DNA of 54,179 nucleotides, from contig JAQCGX010000021.1 in the NCBI GenBank assembly GCA_027619975.1, positions 1 to 54,179 on the forward strand. The letters run 5' to 3'. The stretch is from Nitrospinota bacterium. Lineage in GTDB: Bacteria; Nitrospinota; Nitrospinia; Nitrospinales; VA-1. Below the pieces are notes generated by a model. It was not told where the DNA came from. It searched no databases and saw only the letters and a list, made by a program, of their open reading frames with translations. How positions within the stretch are numbered: the first letter of the stretch is position 1; every line of letters starts with the position of its first letter. The position numbers and the translations under genes were made by a program. Below, in pieces: positions 24,512 through 26,728 of the stretch.

Positions 24512-24937
24512 ATGCAAGATTTTCTTGAAATTATCCCGCACCGACCGCCCTTCCTGTTTGTGGATCGAGTCGTAACCGCCACGGACGCGTGCATCCAGAC
24601 CCAGAAAGATGTGAAAGCGGATGAACCCTTTTTCGAGGGGCATTACCCCGGCAGGCCCATCATGCCCGGCGTGTTGATCCTGGAATCGGTGTTTCAGACG
24701 GGAGCCATCCTCATGGGCAAACGCATGCAGGATCTTAACAACCGCATTCCTGTGGTCACGCGGGTGAATCAGGTCAAGTTCAAACACGCCGTTTTCCCGG
24801 GGGATGTGATGGAAATCGAGGTGAAACTGAAGGAATGGGTGGAACCCGCCTGTTTCCTGTCGGGCCGGGTAAAGGTAAAGGACAAAACGGTGGCAACTCT
24901 TGATTTCGCCGTCATGCTGGTGGAGGAAGTCAAATGA
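24512..24937 (+). CDS. 3-hydroxyacyl-ACP dehydratase (FabZ-like)
   Basis: It dehydrates 3-hydroxyacyl-ACP. The 141-residue hot-dog protein begins IIPHRPPFLFVDRV and has the catalytic pair His44 (FFEGHYPGRPIMPG) and Glu58 (LILES). It starts 4 bp after the FabG-like stop. Its stop once probably overlapped the FabI-like start as ATGA: the sequence CAAATGAGTTTT occurs both at its end (24931-24942) and at the FabI-like start (25311-25322), with 368 bp of repeat-bearing DNA between. Confidence 0.92.
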   Translation: MQDFLEIIPHRPPFLFVDRVVTATDACIQTQKDVKADEPFFEGHYPGRPIMPGVLILESVFQTGAILMGKRMQDLNNRIPVVTRVNQVKFKHAVFPGDVMEIEVKLKEWVEPACFLSGRVKVKDKTVATLDFAVMLVEEVK

Positions 24938-24942
24938 GTTTT

Positions 24943-25310
24943 AAAAGTCGGCAACTAAAGCGTTTTCAGTGTCTGGCATCGCCAACGGGAAGAGACCTTC
25001 GCGTAAGTCGAGCGTCTTCAAGCAGATTACCGCTGAGCCTACCCCATACGTCATCGCGAGCCGCAAAGCGGCGCGGCGATCCAGGGCCTCTGGATTGCTT
25101 CGTCGCCGTTGGCTTCTCGCAAAGACGACTTAAGCAAAGCTCTCTTTTAAAAGGGGGGGTCGGTTGCTCCCCCTTCACCGAAGTGCCCGTGCCGGGTATG
25201 AGAGCTAATGTTAAATACCACAGGGGCCGAGGGGATTTATACGCTCCCTGGGCAAACGGGGATGGCCGCCCTCATCCAAAGTTCTCCAACAAAAAGAGCG
25301 AGGCCCGCCA
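24943..25310. mobile_element. Inserted block flanked by a 12-bp direct repeat
   Basis: The block lies between two copies of CAAATGAGTTTT (24931-24942 and 25311-25322). It splits a cluster in which all other late genes are 4-17 bp apart. It contains one copy of the dispersed GTCATCGCGAGCCGCAAAGC repeat (25001-25130), GC content unlike its neighbours, and no convincing gene. An insertion with a 12-bp target duplication is the simplest reading; clear terminal inverted repeats were not found. Confidence 0.65.
25001..25130. repeat. Dispersed repeat R, copy 1
   Basis: It runs from GCGTAAGTCGAG through ACGTCATCGCGAGCCGCAAA to CTGGATTGCTTC. A 40-bp core at 25046-25085 is identical to the copy near 26529-26568. 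The core folds as GCCGCaaaGCGGC. It lies in the block between the fabZ-like and fabI-like genes. Confidence 0.8.
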
Positions 25311-25313
25311 CAA

Positions 25314-26117
25314 ATGAGTTTTTTGGACCTTAAAGGCAAGACCTTTCTGGTGTTCGGCGTCGCTAATAAAAAGAGCGTGGCCTATCACATCGGCAAAACT
25401 TTAGCCGAGGAAGGGGCCGATGTGCTTTACAGCGTGCGCTCCGAGGCCCGCAAACAATCCGTCGGCAAACTCCTGGGTGACGCGCCGGTGTATGTGTGCG
25501 ATGTCGAAAATAAGGAAGATATCGACCGTCTGCGGCAAGAAGTGGCCAAAGACCGGAAAACTTTACACGGAATGGTCCATTCCATCGCTTTCGCCAATTA
25601 CGCAGGCGGCAACAAGCCCTTTCATGAAACGGAAAAAGCCGATTTCCTGCAATCCATCGACATCACCTGTTTTTCCCTGATTGGGCTTGCCAACGCCTTC
25701 AAGGACGTTCTGCATAAAAACGCCTCGGTGGTGACGGTGTCCATCTCCACCACCCGCATGGCCGCCGAGAATTATGGCTATATGGCCCCCGCCAAGGCCG
25801 CCCTCGACTCCTCCCTGTGTTTTCTGGCGAAATCGTTCAGCGCCTTTTCCAATATCCGCTTCAACTCGGTCAATGCCGGCCTGCTCAAGACCTCCGCCTC
25901 GGCGGGGATTCCCGGTTACGTCGATTCCTATCTTTATGCGGAACAGCTCACCCTGCGCAAAAAAGCCCTGACCACCCCGGAGGTGGCCAATACAGCCGTG
26001 TTTCTGCTCAGCGAGCGGTCGAGCGGCGTCAACGCCCAGGGGATCGTCCTCGACTGTGGCATGTCCATCAACTATTTCGACCGCGTCATGGTGAAAAAAG
26101 CCATGAAACCCGAATAA
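25314..26117 (+). CDS. Enoyl-ACP reductase-like SDR (FabI-like)
   Basis: It probably reduces the trans-2-enoyl-ACP bond. The 267-residue protein has the FabI-type cofactor site [14 protein letters not shown] (14-27), VHSIAFAN (88-95), and the Tyr-x6-Lys pair Tyr154 and Lys161 (YGYMAPAK). The first conserved FabI tyrosine (Tyr146 in E. coli) is Ile or Ser here (SISTTRM). It also keeps a family-like end ([10 protein letters not shown]). It may have altered specificity or act on an unusual chain. It is the last gene of the cluster and is separated from fabZ-like by the inserted block. Confidence 0.85.
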
Positions 26118-26286: not shown

Positions 26287-26483
26287 TCTTCGGTGCGCGA
26301 TATTTTTTTTACAATTAAATTTTTTTGTTGTCATTTGAAAAATAACGGGTTACAGTGATATGTATTTTACACTTACTGTTAAAGCTAATATGGTTTGTTG
26401 TATGACACTGTTGGTGCTGGGGGGAGAGGGAAACAGTAGGAATTAAGATCCATCCACATTCCCCTCCTTTGCAAGGAGAACTT

Positions 26484-26612
26484 TGCGTAAGTCGAGAATC
26501 TTCATGGAGTTTGCCCTGAGACTATTCTATACGTCATCGCGAGCCGCAAAGCGGCGCGGCGATCCAGGTGTTCTGGATTGCTTCACTTCGTTCGCAATGA
26601 CGGGTTTTGCAA
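26484..26612. repeat. Dispersed repeat R, copy 2
   Basis: Same order as the copy at 25001-25130: GCGTAAGTCGAG, ACGTCATCGCGAGCCGCAAA, CTGGATTGCTTC, here ending CGCAATGACGGG. It occupies the 600-bp gap between the fatty-acid cluster and the chemoreceptor. A CCCCGCCCC/GGGGCGGGG hairpin follows near 26670-26688. Confidence 0.8.
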
Positions 26613-26728
26613 AGGTCTCCTTTGCAGGGAGGGGTTAGGGGAGGTTATAAAAAAACTACCTTTAAATACCCCGCCCCTTGGGGCGGGGATCATTTATTAT
26701 TCCAGGTTGAATTTATGGGGAGAAAGCG

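Follow-up and report, generated by a model that had tools for sequence, protein, structure and literature searches.

The analysed stretch of DNA, hereafter the window, corresponds to contig 21 (54,179 nt), which belongs to an assembly of 2.93 Mb; the genome itself is coded G000. It contains a fabZ-like gene followed by a fabI-like gene, whose top NCBIfam matches are FabI models with scores under the cut-offs of these models (Table 1). The relatives of the encoded FabI protein are Nitrospinaceae MAGs. The TGA of fabZ sits within a first ATGA at the left copy of the direct repeat CAAATGAGTTTT, and fabI begins at the right copy. As the initial annotation had described, these 12-bp copies at the fabZ stop and the fabI start are identical at 12/12 positions and lie 380 nt apart. 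Roughly estimated, chance alone would produce such a perfect 12-mer pair about 0.01 times per 650-bp stretch, and at exactly these two gene ends far more rarely still. The block between the genes indeed carries dispersed repeats, R among them: 30 places match in G000, and each of the five members of the same-genus sample (g1; G000-G004, four of five MAG-like) has 4 to 49. In addition, positions 25283-25312 resemble fabI codons 16-25 (25360-25389) with 77% identity at a spacing of 77, a likeness that provides a clue to the real origin of the block.

Table 1. Features at the fabZ-fabI junction of the window
Feature	Position	Strand	Evidence
fabZ-like gene, 3-hydroxyacyl-ACP dehydratase	24512..24937	+	Pfam FabA-like 7.7e-26; NCBIfam FabZ
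Predicted Shine-Dalgarno-like GGAGGA within the fabZ end	24922..24927	+	duplex energy -9.3 with anti-SD
Left copy of 12-bp repeat CAAATGAGTTTT	24931..24942	+	sequence
Leader ORF, 127 codons, ATGA to ATGA, through the insertion	24934..25317	+	ORF listing
Decayed copy of fabI 5'-end, left part (58 nt)	24934..24991	+	aligned to intact 77-nt copy of G003
Target-site duplication, left, CAACGGGAA	24983..24991		6/9 with right copy
Composite MITE, 295 bp, within the fabI-start copy	24992..25286		ends match TIR with 1 and 3 mismatches
MITE R proper, 153 bp, inner palindrome, IS5-type ends	24992..25144		alignment of 12 other copies; TIR/9-bp scan
Second segment of the composite, a dispersed repeat that contains its right end	25145..25286		parallels in G004 and L250
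Decayed copy of fabI start, right part, including target duplication, directly upstream of fabI	25287..25313	+	alignment with fabI and G003
Target-site duplication, right, CAACAAAAA	25287..25295		6/9 with left copy
Predicted candidate new Shine-Dalgarno GAGG, 10 nt before fabI	25300..25303	+	sequence prediction
Right copy of 12-bp repeat CAAATGAGTTTT	25311..25322	+	sequence
fabI-like gene, enoyl-ACP reductase	25314..26117	+	Pfam adh_short_C2 2e-55
fabI 5' end (77 nt), donor of the tandem duplication	25314..25390	+	48/77 ungapped with copy of G003

In G001, G002, G004 and G008, and across most of the family and order as well, fabZ and fabI share a 4-nt ATGA overlap. The overlap that the initial annotation had proposed as the ancestral junction is seen in same-genus relatives, and a strain of the block-free type predicted there exists, as G004 has one CAAATGAGTTTT together with the overlap. 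In G003, whose FabI is the closest to that of the window (88%), 73 nt separate the fabZ stop from the fabI start, corresponding to 77 nt counted from the first ATG. This spacer matches the first 77 nt of the window fabI at 48/77 positions, ungapped and in exact register. Among about 108,000 places in the window on both strands this is the best match, the next one reaching 38 or fewer, and it stays on top when the first ten bases are dropped. When the spacers were tested by strict local alignment, that of G003 gave p=0.39; since this test is too blunt for decayed copies, a register-aware (global) test against shuffles was used instead, which yielded z = 7.3. The five genus genomes contain no further convincing match to the 77-nt copy of G003.

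When the window block was aligned with the G003 spacer, 54/76 aligned positions were identical, with a single gap of 304 nt. Moreover, a quick tree of FabZ and FabI, from which the duplicated part of FabI was left out, places G000 and G003 as sisters (SH-aLRT 88) beside G001, G002 and G004 (95). The sister placement and the match between G003 and fabI thus indicate that the 77-bp duplication occurred once, in the ancestor of G000 and G003. Judged from these alignments, the fabI start was tandemly duplicated over 77 bp, and the 12-bp repeat is the part of the copy that has been preserved best. The comparison places this duplication of the first 77 nt of fabI at the ATGA overlap of the common ancestor; the duplicate lies between fabZ and fabI and has decayed.

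The gap relative to G003 equals the sum of a 295-bp insert and a 9-bp duplication. The insert is short, occurs in multiple copies and encodes no protein family of Pfam or NCBIfam. Twelve copies of R align from GAGACCTTTGCGTAA to TTATGCAAAGGTCTC, and six other copies of the MITE are flanked by 9-bp duplications matching at 9/9 or 8/9 positions. Its terminal sequence GAGACCTTYGCGTAA, from which the right end of the window insert deviates by three mismatches, is common to an apparently intact 1,154-bp IS5-family element at G000:C15:64186-65339 (L249 687-1840). This element has 18-bp perfect TIRs bearing the ends of the MITE, a perfect 9-bp duplication CTTCGTAAG and a transposase of 319 aa that matches NCBIfam NF033581 (IS5 family; 262 bits vs a cut-off of 140). 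It is the single copy found in the genus and the likely source of transposase for the MITEs. By its ends and duplications, repeat R is an IS5-type MITE. A REP/RAYT origin of R was dropped, as the genome holds one partial Y1_Tnp match and the ends of R are IS5-type; likewise, an RNA element was rejected, as just two Rfam matches were obtained, both far under the gathering scores.

The second segment of the insert has a full-length match in G004 (82%) with the same end point, and in L250 it stands again behind another MITE bearing the same ends; the composite design recurs in G004, and with these arrangements the composite looks like a recurrent unit. In line with an insertion of the whole composite, its flanks CAACGGGAA and CAACAAAAA match at 6/9 positions, with the three differences adjacent and shifted controls reaching 4 or less; the flanks of R proper match at only 1/9. 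The comparison indicates that, in the lineage of the window, the composite entered the duplicate and generated a 9-bp target duplication. The MITE family of the insert resembles IS5-family insertion sequences and their MITEs in its 15-18-bp TIRs, its 9-bp target duplications, its many short non-autonomous copies and the accompanying full element with an IS5-type transposase; it differs in that the window copy consists of two repeat segments and has a degraded target duplication. Just downstream of fabI, at 26476-26619, the R MITE occurs once more; this copy too has TIRs, and its target duplication (CTTTGCAAG/CTTTGCAGG) matches at 8/9 positions. In addition, G004 contains 71 TIR matches vs 1-17 in its sister genomes, which suggests a recent burst of the MITE in G004, an assembly in which no transposase of the MITE's type was found.

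The initial annotation had offered, as the first of two readings, a recent insertion with a long target duplication. The perfect 12-bp repeat, the presence of R inside the block and the empty sites in relatives would all fit a model in which a 368-bp element transposed recently, in one event, into the ATGA and duplicated 12 bp of its target. Nevertheless, we regard this as practically untenable: it is ruled out by G003, which carries the 77-nt fabI-like spacer without the MITE, and by the 9-bp duplications made by the MITE family. Moreover, the MITE does not reach the borders of the block, its ends being 50 and 27 nt further in, and the parts flanking it match fabI. The 12-bp repeat therefore does not represent a target-site duplication; the true one is 9 bp long and lies inside the fabI-start copy. 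Nor is a recent origin supported, since the duplicate is about 60% identical to fabI and common to two species with FabI proteins 88% identical, and the target duplication of the MITE has eroded to 6/9. The alternative that had been offered, a duplication that captured a repeat, proved essentially correct in the light of the junctions of the relatives and the MITE alignments.

The 6/9 target duplication is the weakest link in this insertion history; it may instead reflect conversion of the right part by fabI or a different origin of that part. The right part could accordingly stem from a later duplication of the fabI start or from gene conversion, with the MITE lying between two copies. The right part is closer to its own fabI (23/30, AAAAAG) and the left part nearer to the G003 copy; the presumed target duplication shows a GGG/AAA difference, and double copies do occur, as in G064. 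One copy nevertheless fits the lengths (58 + 18 = 76 nt, plus the 9-bp duplication), and the GAGG is common to the copy of G003, so that two duplications seem rather improbable to us. A single duplication of the fabI start followed by insertion of the MITE into the duplicate is, on the strength of the alignments, highly probable.

Similar spacers were observed in Nitrospina (g8), where fabZ and fabI are separated by copies of the fabI start about 58-62 nt long. The copy in G062 is fresh, with 50/59 positions identical to the fabI start, and the register-aware test gave significant results for the spacers of G011, G021, G024, G060, G063, G064 and G065. G064 harbours two copies in a row; G036 and G061 kept the plain overlap. 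The length and the breakpoints of the duplicates are unlike those in the genus of the window, indicating at least two origins. As far as can be read from the junctions, other members of this marine bacterial family have duplicated the same fabI start independently, and the copies in G062 and G064 suggest two further, later events. The spacers of G009, G015, G031, G027 and G030 fail the register-aware test and that of G068 is borderline (p=0.05); none of these was counted as an event.

For comparison, about 3,300 candidate starts (about 1.25 Mb) from G003, G000 and three Nitrospina genomes were scanned. The scan ranks fabI first in G000 (offset 77) and in Nitrospina (offset 59), and among these candidates no other start duplication is as clear. 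It misses the copy of G003 itself, which is too decayed. Because its permuted control is inflated by alternative starts of one gene, the ranking was used and not the expected counts.

Since 77 equals 3n+2, the reading frame of the copy ends at the TGA of the next ATGA. In four genomes (G000, G003, G062 and G065) the start codon of the copy is kept and the frame is open, ending 4 nt into fabI; an ORF in G031 likewise ends in the overlap and was left out of this count. In G000 the frame runs through the insertion, which together with a 1-nt deletion adds a net 303 nt without a stop. The resulting leader ORF has no match in Pfam or NCBIfam, and the sequence of the leader peptide is not conserved. 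A protein function for the 127 codons was dismissed, as no family was found and the stretch between the ends of the copy is transposon. The predicted GGAGGA would have been the ribosome-binding site of fabI while the genes still overlapped; today the ATG that follows it is that of the leader ORF. The GAGG is present in the copies of both G000 and G003, where the donor sequence reads GTGG.

These features suggest how fabI could be reached by ribosomes. A ribosome leaving fabZ may start on the leader ORF and then pass to fabI, a hand-over of the kind proposed for mycobacterial repeat units (see below), and coupling would thereby persist despite the distance between the two genes. The insertion and the 1-nt deletion would have kept the leader frame open, and the GAGG behind the copy may supply a weak ribosome-binding site of fabI's own. 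According to published work, genes must overlap or be separated by a very short gap for termination-reinitiation, and little of it is left at a spacing of about 20-38 nt (PMC10666635). As in ATGA (-4 nt) overlap pairs with termination-reinitiation, the ancestral junction and both ends of the leader ORF have this arrangement; the difference is that duplication has here pulled the genes apart, creating two successive ATGA junctions. A parallel is provided by the mycobacterial interspersed repetitive units (MIRUs), which are located in operons at overlapping stop and start codons. As described in a review (PMC12548453, citing Supply 1997), these short intergenic repeats bear an ORF coupled at -4 nt to the downstream gene, and a spacer need not break coupling. 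Likewise, the leader ORF of the window and the ORF of G003 end in a TGA overlapping the fabI ATG. The unit described here differs in that it arose by tandem duplication of the 5' end of fabI itself and is confined to this junction; MIRUs are mobile and dispersed at many loci, whereas here the inner MITE is dispersed and the coupled unit is not. Given the distance limits of reinitiation and the MIRU parallel, we prefer the reading that the leader ORF of the window genome is coupled.

The same duplication and MITE could, however, be neutral, with fabI translated from its new ribosome-binding site and the open leader ORF a product of chance. In most Nitrospina copies the first ATG, by decay from ATG to ATA, or the frame is lost, indicating that coupling is not needed there. 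Open frames are not unlikely in short copies either: without selection they are expected with probabilities of 0.43 in G003, 0.77 in G062 and 0.48 in G065. The SD-like energies before fabI are moderate (-7.9 in G000 and -6.3 in G003), as in 7% and 16% of background positions, respectively. On the other hand, in each of the four genomes with a kept start and an open copy of full length, the frame ends precisely in the overlap, and in G000 it has survived the 304-nt insertion, for which a 1-nt deletion compensates. When inserts of the right length are shuffled, 2.9% stay open (P = 0.029); multiplied by about one third for phase, this amounts to about 1% by chance. We therefore see in neutrality a serious contender that falls somewhat short of an even chance, and the proposal that the leader ORF couples the translation of fabZ to that of fabI as evenly balanced between right and wrong. 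The whole explanation, from start duplication through MITE insertion to a coupled leader ORF, is likely in our view. A bolder proposal seems unlikely: that Nitrospinaceae have repeatedly, and under selection, used tandem start duplication to place a coupled leader ORF between the two genes, as their own home-made equivalent of a MIRU, lowering or tuning fabI output while keeping the tie to fabZ.

Taken together, the junctions form a natural series from overlap to fresh copy, decayed copy and copy with transposon, in which a tight ATGA overlap in an essential-pathway operon becomes a long spacer step by step. Duplication of a gene's own start can provide a fresh ribosome-binding site and, at the right length, would leave behind a leader ORF that is coupled. 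The ingredients are each known; new is the repeated duplication of this one start with the coupling, as proposed here, kept. We found no description of this start-duplication route to a spacer in the open-licence literature searched, where text searches for the core of the repeat and for prior reports likewise returned nothing relevant. Repeat R is now identified as an IS5-type MITE, with a likely source of transposase named.

The fabZ-fabI junction seems to collect repeats. In G027, G030 and G067 the spacers hold different insertions, the right ends of which resemble fabI without reaching significance; those of G067 (L167) and G030 (L172) include a dispersed-looking ATACCACGGGGCATGAGG..., which resembles the second segment of the window insert. 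In G007 (L039/L092) we observed an independent 211-nt insert at the junction, which comprises a palindromic repeat CATTCTGAG...CTCAGGATGAC and lacks fabI-like sequence. Finally, in G005:C1, a single contig of 2.5 Mb (L187, L188), fabI is apparently split, with residues 2-48 following fabZ at 1483758 and residues 55-266 at 655689, 0.8 Mb off, each part lying in a long open frame; this may reflect a rearrangement, a gene fusion or a misassembly.
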